64,000 bases of DNA from Amycolatopsis nigrescens CSC17Ta-90 (GTDB lineage Bacteria > Actinomycetota > Actinomycetes > Mycobacteriales > Pseudonocardiaceae): assembly GCF_000384315.1 (NCBI RefSeq), contig NZ_ARVW01000001.1:6386157-6450156 (forward strand), given 5' to 3'. Shown here piece by piece: positions 36,749 to 46,856 of the stretch. Position 1 is the stretch's first letter, and each line of letters begins with the position of its first letter. The position numbers and the translations under genes were made by a program. The notes under the pieces are model-generated. The model was not told where the DNA came from, searched no databases, and saw nothing but the letters and a program-made list of their open reading frames with translations.

Positions 36749-37441
36749 ATGGCGCGGCTTAACTACAACGAGCTCAACGACACCATTCGCTACACCGCAT
36801 GGTCGGTGTTCCAGGTCCAGCCGGGGCGGCTGCCCGAGGACCGCGGGCCGGCGGCCCGTGAGACCACCGAGTACCTGGATGCCTTGGCGGACAAGGGTGT
36901 CGTGGTGCGCGGGATGTACGACGTGGCCGGCCTCCGCGCCGACGCGGACTTTATGGTCTGGTGGCACGCCGAGGAGATCGAGCAGGTTCAGGCCGCCTAC
37001 AACGGCTTCCGCCGCACCCCGCTCGGTCGCGTGTCCACTCCGGTCTGGAGCCAGGTCGCGCTGCACCGGCCCGCCGAGTTCAACAAGAGCCACGTGCCCG
37101 CCTTCCTGGCCGGTGAAGAGGCGCGCAAGTTCATCTGCGTGTACCCCTTCGTGCGGTCCTACGAGTGGTACCTGCTGCCGGACGACGAGCGCCGCAAGAT
37201 GCTCGCCGACCACGGCAAGGAGGCCAGGGACTACCCGGACGTCCGCGCGAACACGGTCGCGTCCTTCGCACTCGGCGACTACGAGTGGATCCTCGCCTTC
37301 GAGGCCGACGAACTGCACCGGATCGTCGACCTGATGCGCCACCTTCGCGGCACCGAAGCGCGGCTTCACGTGCGCGAGGAGATCCCGTTCTACACCGGCA
37401 CCAGGGTGGCGCCGTCGGAGCTCATCGCCGCCCTGCCCTGA
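36749..37441 (+). CDS. chdC: Coproheme decarboxylase (HemQ/ChdC)
   Basis: 230 residues, chlorite dismutase family. [20 protein letters not shown] at the N-terminus; [13 protein letters not shown] carries the catalytic Tyr; [15 protein letters not shown] carries the proximal haem-ligand His. It makes haem b from coproheme, the last step in Gram-positive bacteria. 33 bp after hemY on the same strand. Convergent with the helicase partner gene, whose stop is 15 bp away. Confidence 0.92.
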
Positions 37442-37456
37442 CACACGTGGGCCGGT

Positions 37457-38662
37457 TCAGCGGTCGAGCTGGGTGAGCTGGGCGGCGAGGGCGGACATAC
37501 CGGCCTTCATCGCCAGGTCGTACAGCGTCGCGGTGTTCATCGCGCCGAGCTCCAGCTGACGGGAAATCCTGGCGATCCGCTCGTGCACGTCGGCCGGGGT
37601 CCGTTCGCGGGCGCCGAGGTAGGCGTCGACGCGCAGCAGCAGGGACTGCCGGCGGACCCGCTCATCGGTGCACCAGACGTGGAAGAAGTTCTTGCCCCGC
37701 ACCACGAACGAGCCGAGCTTGCGCAGCGGGAGCGGCCCGTCTTTGGTGAACGCGGAGCCGGGCAGGGTGACCCGCCATGCGCCGTGCTCGTCCAGGGTGG
37801 GCTTGGCGGTGGTCAGGTCCCGCTCGCTCAGCCAGTCCTTCATCCAGTCGATCTCGGTGCGCGCGATCCGGTCCTCGGTCTCCAGCAGGCCCAGCACGTC
37901 CGGGCTCTGCTCGCACAGCGCGGTGACGTCCAGGTCGGGCTCGACGCCGGCCTGGGTGTAGGCGAGGTGGCGCACCCGCTTCCCGTCCTGCACCGCGCGG
38001 ACCAGGTACAGCGGCAGGTAGACGCGGTCCTCGGCAACACTCTCCGGGCCGTCCATCCTGGTCGGCAGGTTGAAGTGGTCCCGTTCCGGGTTGCCGGCCA
38101 GCTCGGTGAGCGCCTCCCGGCGGAACGGGTACGGGCTCAGCAGCCGCAGGAACTTCGAGCCGCCGGGCGAGTCCAGCGCCGCCGCCAGCCGGTCTTCGGG
38201 CAGCAGGGTGACCGTGCGCGAGTGGTAGTAGGGCCGGGTCAGCGGGCGCGAACCGAACGCGTCGAAGTACAGCCGCCGCCGGTCCCCGGCGGTCACCACG
38301 TAGCGCACCTGGTCGCGGACGGAGGCGGCGCCGAGCGTGGTGAGCGTGAACCGGCCGCCCGACTCGGCCAGGTGCCCGATCGCGGCGAGCGAGCGCAGCG
38401 CCCGGTCCACCAGCTTCTCCTCGATGGCGAAGAACGCGGCCAGCTCGGCGGTGGTCTGCAGGCCGGCTTCGGCGATCCCGCGTTCGAGGTAGCGGTCGAT
38501 CAGCTGGTACGGCTCGCCTTCGGTGACCGTCGAGCGCACCTCGACCCGCCACAGCGGCAGCAGCACGGTGAAGATCCTGGTGGGCACGGTGTCCTGGTCG
38601 AAGGCGGCGTCCTCCAGCGCGCGCTCGGCCGGGTACCGGATCAGCCTGGTGTCGGTCCTCAT
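37457..38662 (-). CDS. Unknown winged-helix protein paired with the helicase
   Basis: 401 residues, no family recognised. No signal peptide or membrane helix. Residues about 50-115 (YQLIDRYLERGIAEAGLQTT to GHLAESGGRFTLTTLGAASV) look like a winged-helix domain with a beta wing. The rest is mixed alpha/beta with conserved-looking blocks PYYHSRTVTLLPEDRL, DRVYLPLYLV and RGKNFFHVWC. I do not see a HKD phospholipase motif, a PD-(D/E)xK motif or a TIR/Sir2 pattern. Its ATG is 2 bp after the helicase stop, so the two are almost certainly co-translated and act together. A nucleic-acid adaptor for the helicase is my inference. Confidence 0.75.
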   Translation of the reverse strand: MRTDTRLIRYPAERALEDAAFDQDTVPTRIFTVLLPLWRVEVRSTVTEGEPYQLIDRYLERGIAEAGLQTTAELAAFFAIEEKLVDRALRSLAAIGHLAESGGRFTLTTLGAASVRDQVRYVVTAGDRRRLYFDAFGSRPLTRPYYHSRTVTLLPEDRLAAALDSPGGSKFLRLLSPYPFRREALTELAGNPERDHFNLPTRMDGPESVAEDRVYLPLYLVRAVQDGKRVRHLAYTQAGVEPDLDVTALCEQSPDVLGLLETEDRIARTEIDWMKDWLSERDLTTAKPTLDEHGAWRVTLPGSAFTKDGPLPLRKLGSFVVRGKNFFHVWCTDERVRRQSLLLRVDAYLGARERTPADVHERIARISRQLELGAMNTATLYDLAMKAGMSALAAQLTQLDR

Positions 38663-38664
38663 GG

Positions 38665-41634
38665 TCAGATGTCACCGGTCCACGCGCCGAGTTCGGCCAG
38701 CCGGTCGCGCACCTCGCCGTAGCCGCGCAGGTCCCCGCGCGCCTTGGTGTACTCGTGCAGGGATTTCGCCATTGCGCGGAAACCGGGGTCCTTCGCGGCG
38801 GACAGCGTGGCCAGGTCGCCGACCAGCACGAGCTGCCGGGTGGCGCGGGTGAAGGCCGCGTTCGCCCGGCGCGGATCCTTCAGCAGGCCGATGTCGCCCT
38901 CCGGGTTGCTGCGGGTGAAGCCGTACAGCAGCACGTCGCGTTCGCCGTGCACCGAGTCGGCGGTGCCCACGTTCAGCCCGACGGCCTGCGCGTCGCCGAG
39001 CACCCCGGTCAGCACCTTGGTGATCCAGGCGACCTGCGCGCGGTAGGGCACCACGAGCGCCCAGGTCTCGCCGCGCCGGTGGTAGAAGCCGGCCAGCTCG
39101 ATCAGCAGCTTCGCCTCGGCCGGGTTGAGGTAACCGCGCTGCCGCCAGGGTTCGCGTGCGTCGCCCGGCCGTTCGACCCGTTGCTCCGCGGGCAGCGCGG
39201 AGGTGTCCACGAAGGCCAGCGGACTGTGGAACAAGGGATCTGTGCCTGCACTGCTGTCCGGCTTCCGCTCTGTCCGCAGCTTTCCCTGGTAGAAGGTGCC
39301 GGAGACGAAGTCGGCGATCGCGGCCGGCATCCGGCGCTGCTGGTTCAGCCGGAGCAGGTTGCTCTCCGGCAGCCGGGTGGCCAGCAGCTCGAACGCGCTG
39401 CGCGTCATCAGCCCGCGCAGGTCGCCGTCCTCGGCGCTCGGGCCCCACCGGTCCACGTCCGAGTCCTGCAGGGGCGGCGGCTGCTGGTGGTCGCCCACCA
39501 GCACCCCCCGCCTGGCCCTGGTCAGCGGCACCATCGCCTCGGCGAGGCCGATCCGGCCCGCCTCCTGCACGATCGCGAGGTCGAACTCGGCGTCCGCCAT
39601 TTCCGGCCGGGAGGACGCGCCCGAGCCGGTGGTGGCGACCACGTCGGCGTAGCGGATCAGCTCGGGGTAGAGCTGCTTGTCGCTCGCGCCGGAGACCTCG
39701 GCGCGCCAGTCGGCCAGCAGTTTCGCCCGGACGGCGAGCAGCGGCAGTCGCTGCTGCAGCCAGCCGCGGAGCGTGGCCAGGTCCTGCGCGATCGCTTCTC
39801 CCTCGATACCGGTGCGCACCGGCGGCGGCTGGTCGACCGCGCTGATCGCCACGGTCGCCGCCTTAGCCGCGGTCAGTGCGGCCTCCACGCTCACGGCGAC
39901 CCGGCGGCTCGCTTCGCCGAGCGCGGCCGTGGCGGCCTGCACCGACGGTTCGTTCTGGGTGACGGCCTCCAGCCGCCGCCTGGCCTCTTCCAGCTCGGCC
40001 TGCTTCCGGGTGCCGTTGGCGCGCAGCCGGATGCTGTTCTCGCGCTCGGCCTCCAGCCGCCGGTCCCACCAGCCGGCCTGCACCCGGTGCACGGCGCCGA
40101 GCACCGGCCGTTCGGAGCGGGACCTGGCGGCGCCGGTCTGCTCGGTCAGCTGCAGCACCCGGCTCTGGCTCAGCTCCAGCGATTCCGCGCACTTCCCGAT
40201 CTCGGCGGTGAGCCGGTCCACGGCGGCCTGAGCTTCCCCGCCGGCGGCGACCCTGGCCGCGGCCAGCGAGGACCGGGCCGCCACCTCTTCGGCCAATGCC
40301 GCGTTCAGCCGCTCGGTCCTGCTGCCGAGTTCGCCGACCCACGGCCCGGCCACGTCGATGTCCTCGTAGGCGGCCAGCGACTGCTCGGTGGCGCTCAGGA
40401 TGCCGGTGCGCAGCGCCGCGGCGTGGCGCTCCAGCCGGTACGGCTCGCCGTCCGGGGTGATCTCGCCGGGATGGCCGACCCGGACGCTGACCAGTTCGGC
40501 TGGCAGCTTGGCCAGCAGCCGGTCCGCGGCCAGGTCGGTCTTCGAGGTGACCAGCACCCGGCCGCGGGCGAGCGCGGAGGCGCGGGCGATCTGGCCGATC
40601 AGCCGGGTCCGGCCGGTGCCGGGCGGGCCGAGCACCAGCAGCAGGTCGTCCACCGCGACGGCCTTGCGGAACGCGTCCAGCTGGTCGGCGTCCAGCGCTT
40701 CGGCCGGTTCGGCCGGTACCGGCTGCAACGGCCGCAGCCGCTGGTCGACCAGCACGGACAGCAGGCCGTTGTCGCCGGCGGGCCGGTCACGCAGCAGCGC
40801 GACCGCGTCCCGCTGCCTGCCGAACACGGCCCGGCTCGGCGTCATCTCCAGCTCGCCCTGCTGGATCAGGTGCTGCCCGTCCACCGGCCGGTCGAACCGG
40901 ATGGTCGCGAACCGACCGGCCAGCCGGGTCACCTGGCCGCGTGGCGCCGCGTCGCCGTGCACCCGGACGAAAGCGCCTTGGCTCAGCGCTCGGCCGTCGG
41001 TCAGCTCGAACTGGAAGATCGAGTGGGCGCCGTCCAGCCGGTCGTCGACGGGTTTCACCGCGCGGTACGGGAACGGCCCTGCCGAGGCGGCGGCCTCCAT
41101 GGTGATCTGCTCGGAGGCGTCGATCAGCCGGTCCAGCCGGTCGAGGAAGGCCAGGTGCGCGGTGTCCGGCGCCGGGCTGCGGCGGCGCGCGTCCAGCTCG
41201 GTGGTCAGGCCCTGCCAGTCGGCCCACAGCCGTGGCCAGTAGGTGTCGGTCCCCGGCGGGACCTGCCTGGTCTCGAACACGGTCAGCCAGCCGCCCGGTC
41301 GCAGCAGCAGATGGCCTTCGGAGAGGTCGTGGTGGTCGCGGATGCGCAGCGGGCTGATCGACGCGATCGTGTAAGCGTCCCGCCGGCGGCTCACGAAGAG
41401 CCGGGCCACGTAGGTCCTGCCGTAGAGCAGCAGGCTCCAGTCCTGCCCGTCGCCCCACGGCTTGCCGAGCCTGGCCGGCACGCCGTCCAGCCGGGCGTTC
41501 AGGTCGGCCTGGAGCTGTTCGAGCCCGAACGGCACCGTGGGGTGGTCGCGGACCTGCCGGCCGAGGAGTGCGGCCAGCTTGCTGTCCGGTACCAGGACGA
41601 TCGGTCCCGGCAGGCCGACGGCGCGAAACGGCAT
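38665..41634 (-). CDS. Divergent Upf1/DNA2-like SF1 helicase
   Basis: 989 residues. N-terminal about 320 residues are unfamiliar. Helicase motifs: I GPPGTGRT (near 335), Ia LVTSKTDLAADRLL, II LAIVQEAGR (near 686; the family has DEA, here QEA), III VGDHQQPPP, IV region LNQQRRMPAAIADFVSGTFY, V GTADSVHGERDVLLYGF, VI RRANAAFTRATRQLVLVGD (near 928). Between Ia and II lies an inserted coiled coil, roughly residues 430-600 (AELEEARRRLEAV and similar). No nuclease domain is visible at either end. The Asp to Gln change in motif II and the VHGE variant in V set it apart from housekeeping relatives. Operon with the 401-residue partner; divergent from the CoA transferase. Confidence 0.82.
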   Translation of the reverse strand: MPFRAVGLPGPIVLVPDSKLAALLGRQVRDHPTVPFGLEQLQADLNARLDGVPARLGKPWGDGQDWSLLLYGRTYVARLFVSRRRDAYTIASISPLRIRDHHDLSEGHLLLRPGGWLTVFETRQVPPGTDTYWPRLWADWQGLTTELDARRRSPAPDTAHLAFLDRLDRLIDASEQITMEAAASAGPFPYRAVKPVDDRLDGAHSIFQFELTDGRALSQGAFVRVHGDAAPRGQVTRLAGRFATIRFDRPVDGQHLIQQGELEMTPSRAVFGRQRDAVALLRDRPAGDNGLLSVLVDQRLRPLQPVPAEPAEALDADQLDAFRKAVAVDDLLLVLGPPGTGRTRLIGQIARASALARGRVLVTSKTDLAADRLLAKLPAELVSVRVGHPGEITPDGEPYRLERHAAALRTGILSATEQSLAAYEDIDVAGPWVGELGSRTERLNAALAEEVAARSSLAAARVAAGGEAQAAVDRLTAEIGKCAESLELSQSRVLQLTEQTGAARSRSERPVLGAVHRVQAGWWDRRLEAERENSIRLRANGTRKQAELEEARRRLEAVTQNEPSVQAATAALGEASRRVAVSVEAALTAAKAATVAISAVDQPPPVRTGIEGEAIAQDLATLRGWLQQRLPLLAVRAKLLADWRAEVSGASDKQLYPELIRYADVVATTGSGASSRPEMADAEFDLAIVQEAGRIGLAEAMVPLTRARRGVLVGDHQQPPPLQDSDVDRWGPSAEDGDLRGLMTRSAFELLATRLPESNLLRLNQQRRMPAAIADFVSGTFYQGKLRTERKPDSSAGTDPLFHSPLAFVDTSALPAEQRVERPGDAREPWRQRGYLNPAEAKLLIELAGFYHRRGETWALVVPYRAQVAWITKVLTGVLGDAQAVGLNVGTADSVHGERDVLLYGFTRSNPEGDIGLLKDPRRANAAFTRATRQLVLVGDLATLSAAKDPGFRAMAKSLHEYTKARGDLRGYGEVRDRLAELGAWTGDI

Positions 41635-41905
41635 CGGTGCTCCTCAGGACGGGCGGTCGTGACCGGCTCGGCGGGTGGGCGCGAGGCTGGTTCGTCCCAG
41701 GCCCAGGTCACGCGGCCGTTGGCACGCGGATCCGGCGGCCTGGGGCGAGGTGCGCACCGGTTGCTCTGCGCACGCGTCCAGCCCCATGCGTTCGCAGCCT
41801 ACTCACCCATGCGTGTCATGTTGGCAGGTCGCGGTGGTCGGTTCGGTAGATGATGTCGCCGATCTCTCAGCCACTGGTGGGACCGGCCGGGCAGAGAATG
41901 AGGTC

Positions 41906-43270
41906 ATGGCGAATCTCGACACGGATCTCGGCGAGCTGTGGCGGGCGCTCACCGGTGAGCCGCTCGAACCGGGTGCGGTGGCCTTCACCGGGGCGGAGTC
42001 CGTGCTGCCAGGCCCGTTCCGGGTGGCCGCCGCGGCGGCTACCTCCGTCGCCGCCACCACCCTCGCCGCGGCCGAGCTGCTGCGGCTGCGCGGCGTCGAG
42101 CCGGGGCGGGTCTCGGTGGACCTCGGGCACGCGGCGGCGGCGTTCCGCAGCGAGCGGTACCTGCTGGTGGACGGCGGCCCGCCCGGTGACGTGTGGGCGG
42201 AGCTCTCCGGCGATTACCGGGCCGCCGACGGCTGGGTGCGGCTGCACTGCAACTACCCGCAGCACGCGGCCGCGGCCTGCCGCGCACTCGGGGTGCCGGA
42301 GAGTAGGGAGGCCGTCACCGAAGCGGTGGCGGCGCGCGGCGCCTGGCAGGTGCAGGAGGAGGTGCTCGCCGCCGGCGGCGCGGCCGCCGCGCTGCGGTCC
42401 CGCGCGGACTGGCTGGCGCATCCGCAGGGCCGGGCGGTGACCGGACTGCCGCTGGCCGAGCTGACCAGGACCGGCCACGCCGCGCCGGTTCCGCTACCCG
42501 ATTCCGGGCGGCCGCTCGGCGGGGTCAGGGTGCTGGAGCTGACGCATGTGATCGCGGGCCCGGTGGCCGGTCGCACGTTGGCCGCGCACGGCGCCGACGT
42601 GCTGCACATCGGGGCCGCGCACCTGCCGGTGGTGCGGCCGCTGGTGATCGACACCGGGCTTGGCAAGCGCTCCGCCTGGCTCGACCTGCGTACCGACGCC
42701 GGCCGGGACCGGCTCTGGGCGCTGATCGCCGGGGCCGACGTGTTCATCCAGTCCTTCCGGCCCGGCGCGCTGGCCGGACTGGGTTTCAGCGCGGACCGGC
42801 TGGCCGCGGCCAGGCCGGGGCTGGTGCAGATCGAGCTGAACGCCTACGGCTGGGCCGGTCCGTGGGCCGGGCGCCGCGGCTTCGACAGCCTGGTGCAGCT
42901 CGCCACCGGTATCGCGGCCGAGGGTGCGGCGGACGCCCCGGTGCCGCTACCGGCGCAGGCGCTCGACCACGCGACCGGCTGGCTGGCCGCGGCCGTCGCG
43001 ATGACCGCGCTGCGCCGCCGGGCGGCCGAGGGCGGCGGCTGGCGGGCCAGGCTGGCGCTCGCCCGCACCGGCGAATGGCTGGACTCCCTCGGCGGCAAGG
43101 ACCCGGCCGCCACCGAACCCGACCTGACCGCCCTACTCACCACCACGCAAAGCCAGTTCGGCGAACTGACCCACGTCCGCGCCCCCGGCGCCCTACCCGC
43201 ATCCAATCCACAATGGACACACGGCTCCCCGCTGCCCGGCGGCGATTCCCCCAACTGGCCTCGTGAGTGA
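41906..43270 (+). CDS. CaiB/BaiF family CoA transferase
   Basis: 454 residues. The C-terminal half carries the class III CoA-transferase core: GVRVLELTHVIAGPVAGRTLAAHGADVLHI, GLGKRSAWLDLRTDAGRDRL, FIQSFRPGALAGLGFS and FDSLVQLATG with the likely catalytic Asp. The first 200 residues are a second, weaker CaiB-like region (SVAATTLAAAELLRLRG), an arrangement seen in some actinobacterial members. Start ATG at 41906 (MANLDTDLGELW). The last codons and TGA stop fall in palindrome copy C. Substrate unknown; no acyl-CoA pathway genes adjoin it. Confidence 0.82.
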   Translation: MANLDTDLGELWRALTGEPLEPGAVAFTGAESVLPGPFRVAAAAATSVAATTLAAAELLRLRGVEPGRVSVDLGHAAAAFRSERYLLVDGGPPGDVWAELSGDYRAADGWVRLHCNYPQHAAAACRALGVPESREAVTEAVAARGAWQVQEEVLAAGGAAAALRSRADWLAHPQGRAVTGLPLAELTRTGHAAPVPLPDSGRPLGGVRVLELTHVIAGPVAGRTLAAHGADVLHIGAAHLPVVRPLVIDTGLGKRSAWLDLRTDAGRDRLWALIAGADVFIQSFRPGALAGLGFSADRLAAARPGLVQIELNAYGWAGPWAGRRGFDSLVQLATGIAAEGAADAPVPLPAQALDHATGWLAAAVAMTALRRRAAEGGGWRARLALARTGEWLDSLGGKDPAATEPDLTALLTTTQSQFGELTHVRAPGALPASNPQWTHGSPLPGGDSPNWPRE

Positions 43271-43304: not shown

Positions 43305-43634
43305 CCGCCACCAGGGGAAACGTCGGCGCGGCCTGGGCAGCTCGCCTCGTTCGACGAGCCATTCGGCGAAGGCGTCCGCGTCCTGGCGGGCCCTGGTGCC
43401 CTCGGCACGCGGATGGCCGGCGGCGTAGGCGTCGAACAGCGCCCGGTACCGGTCCCCGAGCGCATCCGGCAGGTCCGGCCGCAGATACCCGACGACGGAC
43501 CGGCGCTTGGCGCGCAACGCCTGCACCTCGGTGCGCAGCCGGTCCTGGTCGAACCCGGCCGGTGCCGAACCGCCGGCGAGCAGCGCACGCAGCAATTCCG
43601 CCTGCTGCGCGGCCAACCGCTCCCGCCCGCTCAT
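43299..43634 (-). CDS. Small partner protein of the DUF692 enzyme
   Basis: 111 residues. ATG at 43634 overlaps the DUF692 stop (ATGA). The sequence AELLRALLAGGSAPAGFDQD, then YLRPDLPDALGDRYRALFDAYAAGHP and DADAFAEWLVERG, looks like a short relative of the helical partner proteins (DUF2063/MbnC type) that accompany MNIO enzymes, and I recall a family named after SCO6045 with this size and position. Expected to dock with the DUF692 enzyme and bind its substrate. The stop codon lies in palindrome copy C. The open frame extends upstream to 44006 but that part is antisense-frame shadow of DUF692. Confidence 0.7.
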   Translation of the reverse strand: MSGRERLAAQQAELLRALLAGGSAPAGFDQDRLRTEVQALRAKRRSVVGYLRPDLPDALGDRYRALFDAYAAGHPRAEGTRARQDADAFAEWLVERGELPRPRRRFPWWRS

Positions 43635-44446
43635 CCCGGGGACACCACCGCGCGGATCGAGGCCAGCGTCGCGGCCAGCTCGGTGTCGCTCGGGTAGTTC
43701 TCGTCGTGCTCCAGCAGCACCCCCGGCGGATCGGTCCGGCGGCGCAGTTCGGCGAGCAGGTCCAGCACCTCGGGCCGGACCGGGTGCGCGTGCGTGTCGT
43801 GGTAGACCCCGTCGCGCTCGACACCGCCGGCCACGTGCACGTAGGCGAGTCGTTCCAGCGGGATCTCGTCCAGGAACCGCTCGGGGTCGGTGCCCAGGTT
43901 GCGGGCGTTGGCGTAGAGGTTCGCCACGTCCACGATCAGCAGGCAGCCGGTGCGCTCGGTCAGCTCGCGCAGGAACGCGGCCTCGGTCAGCTGGGCGTCC
44001 GGCCATTCGATCAGCGCGGCGATGTTCTCCAGCGCGAACGGCACACCGACGATCGACTGGGTCAGCTTCACGTTGTCCACCAGCACGTCCAGCGCTTCCC
44101 TGGTGCGCGGCAGCGGGATCAGGTGACCGGCGTCCAGCCCGCCGGCCCGCACGAAGCAGACGTGGTCGCTGGCCAGCGGGGCGTCCAGCGCGGCGGCGAG
44201 GCCGGCCAGGTGCTCGATTCGGCGGGTGTCCACCGGCTCGGCGCCGCCGAGCGAGAGCGACACCGCGTGCGGCAGCACCGGCAGGCCGCGTTCGCGGAGT
44301 TTCGCCAGCGCTTCCGGCAGGTGGTCGGTGTGCAGGTTCTCCGCGACCACCTCGACCCAGTCCACCCCGGGCAGCCTGGCCACCGACAGGTCGATCTCCG
44401 GCCGCCAGCCGATGCCGACGCCCAGCTCAGTCACATCCACCCCCAC
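43631..44446 (-). CDS. DUF692 (MNIO) multinuclear iron oxidative enzyme
   Basis: 271 residues, TIM barrel. The metal ligands of the family are all visible: H60 (LPHAVSLSLGG), D94-H95 (SDHVCF), E140-N141, D173 to N176 (VDVANLYAN), H204 (YVHVAGG), D217 and H219 (YHDTHAH) and E246 (LLEHDEN). Known members (MbnB, TglH) modify cysteine or other residues of ribosomal peptides using iron and oxygen. GTG start at 44446 after a GGGGG stretch; a GTG four codons further in (giving MTELGVGIGW) is equally plausible. Downstream of msrB, upstream of its small partner. No precursor peptide is recognisable in the window. Confidence 0.87.
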   Translation of the reverse strand: MGVDVTELGVGIGWRPEIDLSVARLPGVDWVEVVAENLHTDHLPEALAKLRERGLPVLPHAVSLSLGGAEPVDTRRIEHLAGLAAALDAPLASDHVCFVRAGGLDAGHLIPLPRTREALDVLVDNVKLTQSIVGVPFALENIAALIEWPDAQLTEAAFLRELTERTGCLLIVDVANLYANARNLGTDPERFLDEIPLERLAYVHVAGGVERDGVYHDTHAHPVRPEVLDLLAELRRRTDPPGVLLEHDENYPSDTELAATLASIRAVVSPG

Positions 44447-45269: not shown

Positions 45270-46856
45270 TCAGCCGAGCCTGGTGTCCGCGTCGATCTTC
45301 ATCCCGGACTCGGTGTTCGCCACGCGGAACGCCTTGCGCCCGCTTCCTTCGAGGTTCACGTACATGTTGACCGAGCCGTCCGCGCTCGCGCCGTTGTCGG
45401 CGAACGCCTTGGACGCGCTCACCGAGCCCTTCTCGTTCCAGTACTCCTGGAACCGCTGCTGGCTGCCGAAGACCTGCTGGGCCGCGGGGGTGAGCATGTC
45501 CCAGGCGGCCGGGGAGCCCTTGGCGCCGAAGTAGTCGATGACCAGGTTGCCGGCCTGGCTGAAGCCGACCTGGCCGGAGCTCTTCGCCTTGCCGAGCCCG
45601 GCGGGTGCGGGCGAGCTGGCCGACGGCGGGGCCGGGGACTGGGAGGGAGCGGAACTGGCGGCCGGTGGCGGAGTCGAGTCCGGGTCGCCGTTCGAGGAGT
45701 TGAGCACCAGGAACACCACCAGCGCGACCACGGCCACGCCGGCGACCACGGCGCCGGCGAGCAGGCCCTTGCGCTTGGCGGCCGAGGCCGGTTTCGGCGC
45801 GCCGTTGCGGACCGGCGCCGCGGCGGTCGGCGCGGGCGGCGGGGTCGCGGGGCGAGGTACGAAGGCGGCGGTGGGCGTCCGCGGCGGGGTTGGCGGGTTG
45901 CCGGCGCGTGCCCACGGGGGTCTTTCCCCGGCGGGCAGCCCGCGGCCGGGAGTGTCCAGCGGCGCGCCGGCCGGCTGGCGGCCGGGCTGGTAGAGCGGCG
46001 GCGAGACCTGGAGCCCGATGGCACCGGCCGGGGCGGGTTCGCCGTTGGCCAGCGCGGCCAGCCGGTCGCGGGCCTCGGCCATGGTCGGCCGCTCCTCCGG
46101 CTCGGCGCGCAGCAGGCTCATCAGCAGCGCGGTGGCCTGCCCGGACTGCCGTGGCGGGATCACCTGACCGTTCGCCGCGGTGTAGAGCAGCGCGAGCTGG
46201 TTGGTGCTGTTTCCGTACGGCGGCTGGCCTTCCAGCGCGTGGTAGAGCGTGGCGCCGAGGGAGAAGACGTCCGAAGCGGGCCCGGGGTCGGAGCCGCGCG
46301 CCAGCTCGGGCGCCAGGTAGGCCGGGGTGCCGCCGATCAGCCCGGTCTGGGTGAGGGTGAGGTCACCGGTGGCGCGTGAGATGCCGAAGTCGGTGATCTT
46401 GGTGACGCCGCCGTCGTCGATCAGGATGTTGCCCGGTTTGACGTCCCGGTGCACGATCCCGGCGCGGTGCGCGGCGACCAGCGCGGCGGCCACCTGCTCG
46501 CCGATCCTGGCCACCTTGGTCAGCGGCAGCGTCGGCTGCTCGGCCAGCACCGCGGACAGGCTCTTGGACGGCAGGTACTCGGTCACCAGGCACGGGTCGC
46601 CGCCGTGCTCGGCGATGTCGAACACCACGATCGCGTTGGGGTGCTGGAAGCGCGCGGCGTTCCTCGCCTCGCGCATGGCGCGCTGGCGGACGTTGTCCCG
46701 TTCCGCGTCGGACAGTCCAGGCTGGGCCAGGATCTGCTTGATGGCCACGGATCGTTCCAGGCGCTCGTCGACCGCACGCCACACGACACCCATGGCGCCG
46801 CTACCAATGTGCTCAACGACGCGATAGTGCCCTGCGATCAGCTGGCCGGTATCGAT
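45270..46856 (-). CDS. Membrane Ser/Thr protein kinase (PknB type), start codon unusual
   Basis: About 528 residues. Kinase domain: glycine loop IGSGAMG (18-23), K40 in VAIKQI, HRDVKPGN, TDFGIS, and APE (AYLAPELA). A Pro-rich linker follows, then one membrane helix near 361-385 (LLAGAVVAGVAVVALVVFLV) and an outside domain of about 140 residues (VGFSQAGNLVIDYFGAKGS). The first ATG (46793) is inside the glycine loop; extending upstream to the in-frame TAA there is no ATG, GTG or TTG. A strong AGGAG site lies 8 nt before an ATC codon at 46856 (then DTGQLIAGHYRVVEHIG), the best start by position. Function: phospho-signalling from an external cue. Confidence 0.82.
   Translation of the reverse strand: MDTGQLIAGHYRVVEHIGSGAMGVVWRAVDERLERSVAIKQILAQPGLSDAERDNVRQRAMREARNAARFQHPNAIVVFDIAEHGGDPCLVTEYLPSKSLSAVLAEQPTLPLTKVARIGEQVAAALVAAHRAGIVHRDVKPGNILIDDGGVTKITDFGISRATGDLTLTQTGLIGGTPAYLAPELARGSDPGPASDVFSLGATLYHALEGQPPYGNSTNQLALLYTAANGQVIPPRQSGQATALLMSLLRAEPEERPTMAEARDRLAALANGEPAPAGAIGLQVSPPLYQPGRQPAGAPLDTPGRGLPAGERPPWARAGNPPTPPRTPTAAFVPRPATPPPAPTAAAPVRNGAPKPASAAKRKGLLAGAVVAGVAVVALVVFLVLNSSNGDPDSTPPPAASSAPSQSPAPPSASSPAPAGLGKAKSSGQVGFSQAGNLVIDYFGAKGSPAAWDMLTPAAQQVFGSQQRFQEYWNEKGSVSASKAFADNGASADGSVNMYVNLEGSGRKAFRVANTESGMKIDADTRLG

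Follow-up and report, generated by a model that had tools for sequence, protein, structure and literature searches.

The described system closest to the gene pair analysed here is Mokosh. In the passages of PMC10952713 that concern it, a PLD-like (HKD) nuclease is given for Mokosh and a NERD domain for Mokosh type I, and an excerpt of PMC11291487 states that Mokosh degrades viral transcripts. A genome of the same class (G294, locus L088) carries a full MkoA (kinase and helicase, 1155 aa) beside MkoB (winged-helix part and PLDc_2, 470 aa). No NERD domain is seen in this MkoA up to 0.01, and the domain may therefore not hold for every Mokosh type I unit. Other points of comparison are the SF1B helicases IGHMBP2, Upf1 and Senataxin and the helicase-like protein of the PLuB system.

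The pair lies in a 64-kb stretch of Amycolatopsis nigrescens DNA (64,000 nucleotides, called the window throughout). Its two genes are arranged in tandem on the minus strand, opposite in direction to chdC and coaT, and the partner begins 2 bp behind the helicase. The features are as follows.

38665..41634, minus strand: Upf1-like SF1B helicase of 989 aa, encoded by the first gene of the pair, with degenerate ATPase motifs and a relation to the helicase half of MkoA
40705..41634, minus strand: helicase N-terminal region, residues 1-310, much of which can be aligned with the part of MkoA that separates kinase and motor (hhalign)
40609..40611, minus strand: helicase residue 342 in Walker A, Arg as against Lys in relatives (alignments)
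39844..40359, minus strand: long helical (coiled-coil-like) arm, helicase residues 426-597, between motifs Ia and II (AlphaFold2 model)
39565..39567, minus strand: helicase residue 690 in motif II (Walker B), Gln as against Asp in relatives (alignments)
38935..38955, minus strand: helicase motif V region, residues 894-900, SVHGERD; SFQGGERD of the relatives is one residue longer (alignments)
37457..38662, minus strand: partner, 401 aa, with a winged-helix N-terminal domain related to the MkoB N-terminus, a C-terminal half without recognised fold and no HKD motif
38306..38518, minus strand: MarR-like winged helix in the partner, residues 49-119
37442..41905, no strand: segment between chdC (end at 37441) and coaT (likely start at 41906, from homolog alignment) that is absent from relatives

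Both genes are confirmed with the sizes and spacing of the preliminary description, and the QEA of motif II, the VHGE of motif V and the coiled-coil-like arm between motifs Ia and II are all present in the window helicase.

Likeness to Mokosh and to other SF1B helicases

The pair had been described as unfamiliar, which does not hold in light of the profile matches of both proteins to Mokosh. The helicase matches the PADLOC MkoA profile with an E-value of 3.1e-77, and an intact relative (P0122) reaches 7.4e-106 over positions 326-1095 of the 1112 in the profile; the partner matches MkoB with 7.4e-12 over its residues 31-143. When the helicase family is aligned with the full MkoA of G294 using hhalign (probability 100, E 1.4e-53), query residues from 53 on correspond to MkoA residues from 332 on, that is, from behind the kinase onward. 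The partner family aligns with the G294 MkoB over 119 columns of the winged-helix part (E 2.4e-5, probability 75.6).

The helicase motor corresponds to Pfam AAA_11/AAA_12. The AlphaFold2 model of the protein (mb58fad7d00af, pLDDT 90.0) has long helices at residues 426-597, and a Foldseek search with this model reveals a resemblance to Ighmbp2, Senataxin and Upf1. The likeness to these SF1B helicases thus concerns both sequence and fold, whereas the long helical arm and the operon partner set the window helicase apart, and its score for the IGHMBP2 family (TIGR00376) is 174.7 bits, below the cut-off of 348.9. The motor is also similar to that of the PLuB helicase-like protein (NF040671, E 6.7e-40), a comparison of the motor only, in which the score of 136.4 bits is below the cut-off of 999; a literature search for the phrase “PLuB system” found no paper.

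The structure model of the partner (pLDDT 94.8), together with a fold search, bears out the winged-helix region that had been proposed, which is MarR-like and comprises residues 49-119. Matches of the whole-partner model in the PDB and among BFVD viral folds cover mainly these residues, and none of those listed covers the C-terminal half. The motif HxKx4D is present in none of 88 partner homologs, one of which contains a looser match, and Pfam finds no PLD domain in the partner, no kinase in the window pair and, among matches up to E 1, no NERD domain in either window protein. The earlier statement that the pair contains no HKD, TIR or PD-(D/E)xK parts therefore stands for HKD, and for the others as far as Pfam can see.

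As in Mokosh type I, a Upf1-like helicase stands next to a protein with the same winged-helix domain at its N-terminus, and the alignment extends over much of the region that precedes the motor. Additionally, the kinase domain of the L088 MkoA lies N-terminal to the helicase, a position comparable to that of the pseudokinase gene before the helicase in relatives of the window pair. In these relatives, however, the kinase is a separate gene with lost catalytic residues, and it was not found in the window genome; the PLD nuclease half of MkoB is absent from the window partner, and the window motor is without its catalytic residues. The pair is thus related to Mokosh, yet it lacks the defining features, which are the fused kinase and the PLD nuclease.

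Gene content of the relatives and the insertion site

In a scan of named genomes, the partner is found at 28 loci, of which L032 and L033 are partial, and the helicase adjoins it at 25 of the 28. The view of a two-gene system is not supported, since most relatives have a third, pseudokinase-like gene. One of the 25 loci with both genes (L023) is cut at a contig end, and in 22 of the remaining 24 assessable loci this gene immediately precedes the helicase and either ends a few dozen bases or less before the helicase start or overlaps it; only L006 (A. anabasis) and L026 have no such gene there. Of the 22 upstream genes, 21 have lost the VAIK-type lysine of the kinase region and 20 the HRD aspartate, but all keep the DFG-type aspartate; judged from these residues, the upstream gene encodes a pseudokinase.

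The N-terminal part of the pseudokinase varies among the loci. SEFIR and TIR_2 domains are present in L007 and L011, with SEFIR below the cut-off in L030, and PNP_UDP_1 and BTAD are present in L024 and L019, respectively. In two Actinomadura loci (L013 and L022), a separate BTAD (SARP-like) gene precedes the pseudokinase gene, as against the fusion in L019. At others, Pfam sees the kinase part alone, and some of the N-termini are short. A literature search, with coverage mostly outside subscription journals, recognised no description of this three-gene set.

The family pseudokinase was not found in the window genome among 150 scored of 242 candidates (best profile match 2.4e-16), nor in Amycolatopsis anabasis among 150 scored of 313 (4.2e-16). 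These values are at the level of ordinary kinases; in two genomes that have all three genes, the same profile gives 1.1e-94 and 2.6e-97. Loss of the kinase need not kill the motor, because the helicase of L026, which likewise has no upstream kinase, deviates at only 4 near-invariant positions.

Kinase matches to the MkoA profile were rejected as specific evidence for a relation to Mokosh, as an ordinary window kinase matches this profile better (6.8e-27) than the pseudokinases do (5e-11 to 1.3e-7). The window contains an ordinary Ser/Thr kinase with HRD and DFG motifs at 45270-46793, which is most likely the one window protein that matches many PADLOC kinase profiles, including MkoA, and gives a warning on such matches.

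Several other loci have a related gene content. A further kinase-helicase-winged-helix arrangement is found in G262 (L089:1995-12560), where a kinase-like gene, a Upf1-like helicase (1179 aa) and a 512-aa gene matched by the MkoB N-terminus are followed by a gene for what seems to be a 787-aa AAA+ protein with an N-terminal coiled coil. In Kibdelosporangium persicum (L025), a partner without helicase adjoins relatives of the four genes that lie downstream of the full set in A. pittospori (L007), two of which match the PDC-M28B and mad8 profiles. In two Amycolatopsis loci, related genes of 638 and 631 aa stand after the partner (L009:11212-13128 and, in A. suaedae, L011:11274-13169); the 638-aa gene overlaps the end of the partner and has no Pfam or PADLOC match.

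The proposed insertion of the pair into a conserved block is supported by a comparison of the chdC locus in 20 other genomes of the genus, covering about 1.5 kb on each side of chdC. In 19 of these, coaT adjoins chdC (at a distance of about 0.4 kb in G004) and the pair is absent; in several, the coaT alignment extended back to its start reaches the chdC stop. In the twentieth (G013), coaT is not seen near chdC, and the pair is likewise absent within about 1.5 kb. A. anabasis has the pair at the same chdC-coaT site, and a quick tree places its helicase as sister to the window helicase (SH-aLRT 99); the simplest reading is thus an insertion that both inherited from a common ancestor. The pair is accessory, as had been supposed: of 80 genomes of the genus, 8 contain the partner, and of 397 in the order, 12 do (both counts include the window genome). 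Copies also exist elsewhere, as in G004, where chdC and coaT stand without the pair and a three-gene copy is located about 4 Mb away. As to phage origin, a viral contig scan with the partner as query gave 16 pattern matches and no relative. Between the two borders there is no direct repeat of 10 to 14 bp and one 10-bp inverted match, and the 64-kb window contains no tRNA. A RiPP modification enzyme of the MbnB_TglH_ChrH type (3.1e-82) is encoded at 43631-44446, between coaT and msrB, and a relative of it is found near chdC in G013.

The neighbours of the relatives were compared with PADLOC profiles, using 129 of 135 proteins from 23 loci; six were left out (three from L023, two from L024 and one from L031), and the gene calls are rough, so that some are not real genes. 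Among 25 of the 46 families matched, bSEFIR is found in 5 proteins and DrmA, DrmD and DpdB in 2 each. None of these four is present among 25 of the 33 families matched by the 51 other window proteins, which served as a control. Of ten neighbour proteins run singly, five have a match, two of them to bSEFIR (L007 and L011), and five have none. The SEFIR and DISARM/Dpd-type matches lend weak support to a defence setting.

The motor of the window helicase

Walker A reads GPPGTGKT in the relatives and GPPGTGRT in the window helicase, and motif II reads VDEAG and VQEAG, respectively. Lys occupies the column of residue 342 in all 100 other rows of a 101-row alignment and in 24 of the 25 relatives' rows of a second alignment, where the remaining row has a gap. 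In the column of residue 690, Asp is present in 99 of the 101 rows, the others being the window (Q) and P0179 (E); in the second alignment it is present in 24 of the 25 relatives' rows, and L018 has E. Since P0179 and L018 both keep the Walker A lysine, the window helicase alone among the relatives examined lacks both this lysine and the Walker B aspartate. A motif II change as a trait of the family was rejected, because the relatives have a normal motif II and QEA is peculiar to the window copy.

The changes are not confined to these two residues. The window helicase deviates at 18 of 121 near-invariant columns, as against a median of 2 for 61 proteins, and only P0179 and P0224 (19 each) have more deviations. 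Seventeen of the 18 are in the motor, but as 109 of the 121 columns belong to it, this share says little in itself. In the partner, 1 of 63 such columns is changed. The helicase is also altered at conserved positions in motifs Ia, III, V and VI, and residues of motifs Ia and V usually touch nucleic acid in SF1 helicases; the motif VI arginine and the QRRMP stretch are kept. When the N-terminal identity is subtracted from that of the motor, the window helicase is the lowest of 61 proteins (0.107; next 0.119), although by the ratio of the two P0129 (1.20) falls below it (1.21). From these alterations, the window helicase is inferred to be unable to hydrolyse ATP or translocate. An ATP-driven function of this copy is very unlikely, and static binding of nucleic acid is possible.

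The A. anabasis copy keeps both K and D and deviates at 13 of 121 helicase columns and 6 of 65 partner columns. These deviations in both proteins fit a general relaxation in the lineage of the two copies, and the end branch of the window helicase in the tree (0.39) is hardly longer than that of its sister (0.37).

A second degenerate helicase, P0179 from a metagenome, is located elsewhere in the tree; its motif II (VEDAG) and motif V are altered, and its Walker A lysine is intact.

Remnant, decay or receptor

It is proposed, with a probability of about 0.66, that the pair is the remnant of a three-gene Mokosh-related system and that the window helicase is ATPase-dead and is either kept in an ATP-independent role or slowly decaying. 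The defence role suggested in the preliminary description is the one to which the relatives point, and the window pair is judged to be a reduced derivative, ATPase-dead by sequence, of a Mokosh-related accessory system that is probably defensive.

Plain decay is the serious rival, though an unlikely one: the first gene would have been lost and the useless system would be going by drift, with the open frames reflecting the short time elapsed. The many changed residues of the motor agree with this, as do NG86 dN/dS values between the window and A. anabasis of approximately 0.71 for the helicase and 0.56 for the partner, compared with 0.11 for chdC and 0.15 for msrB (coaT, with only 8 codons, was left out). 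Synonymous sites are near saturation in this comparison, and dN/dS was rejected as a decisive test because the fourfold sites are near it as well. In six pairs that include neither the window nor A. anabasis and whose fourfold distance is 0.35 to 0.39, helicase identity ranges from 0.53 to 0.74; for the window and A. anabasis it is 0.54. Against drift, both frames are open over 1390 codons. Had the motor accumulated its changes neutrally, the helicase should also have acquired 4.3 to 6.9 stops, a figure that varies with the mutation model; it has none (chance approximately 0.001 to 0.014). Additionally, GC3 is 0.94 and 0.96 in the helicase and partner, like that of chdC (0.93) and msrB (0.92), and the partner is changed at only the one conserved column. 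The helicase frame could be open just through translational coupling to the partner 2 bp behind, and retention of at least the partner is favoured.

A still-active defence is quite improbable. In such a case, the non-hydrolysing helicase would serve as a receptor for an effector encoded elsewhere, comparable to the inactive STAND NTPases of ternary conflict systems, which the relevant part of PMC8195603 proposes as nucleic-acid receptors. Like the window helicase, these are NTPases whose motifs have eroded, and the effector domains of their systems are exchangeable, but they are STAND ATPases and not helicases, and the comparison is an analogy only. The conservation of the partner and the retained motif VI arginine and QRRMP stretch are consistent with a receptor of this kind, whereas the result of the pseudokinase search in the window genome and the changed residues of motifs Ia and V argue against it. 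A housekeeping pair for RNA/DNA surveillance in actinobacteria, which the Ighmbp2/Senataxin/Upf1 fold and the site common to two Amycolatopsis species might suggest, was rejected as extremely improbable in view of the sparse distribution of the partner and the copies at other sites, which differ from the presence at one locus in nearly all actinobacteria that such a role would imply.

For the three-gene system of which the pair is proposed to be a remnant, the full form would comprise a pseudokinase with an exchangeable, often effector-like N-terminal domain, a Upf1-like helicase with a long helical arm, and the winged-helix partner. The helicase and partner may form a nucleic-acid sensor in which ATP turnover gates recognition, and the pseudokinase adaptor may then switch on its own N-terminal effector (SEFIR/TIR-like or a nucleoside phosphorylase), which would result in abortive infection. 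Such wiring would be similar to that of the conflict systems of PMC8195603, whose effector domains can likewise be exchanged. In the window copy, the helicase could at best bind nucleic acid as a static scaffold for the partner, acting as an ATP-independent receptor or regulator, or else the copy may be drifting slowly towards loss. A broader proposal is tentative, with odds that fall short of even: actinobacteria may have a three-gene immune system, so far undescribed, that is related to Mokosh but split into more genes. In it, a pseudokinase adaptor would link the helicase and winged-helix sensor to an effector, its N-terminus being swappable among SEFIR/TIR-like, phosphorylase and SARP-like types, and the window lineage may have been stripped to a motor-dead helicase and partner that are retained as an ATP-independent nucleic-acid receptor or regulator.

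A helicase pair that had appeared unknown is now linked to Mokosh, and a third, pseudokinase gene with exchangeable N-termini is exposed in the relatives. This points to a way in which sensors of the Mokosh type could be connected to various killing domains. Copies without the adaptor or the motor allow the need for each part to be tested in nature. If the dead helicase is indeed kept in frame, it would be the prokaryotic equivalent of nucleic-acid receptors that work without ATPase activity.
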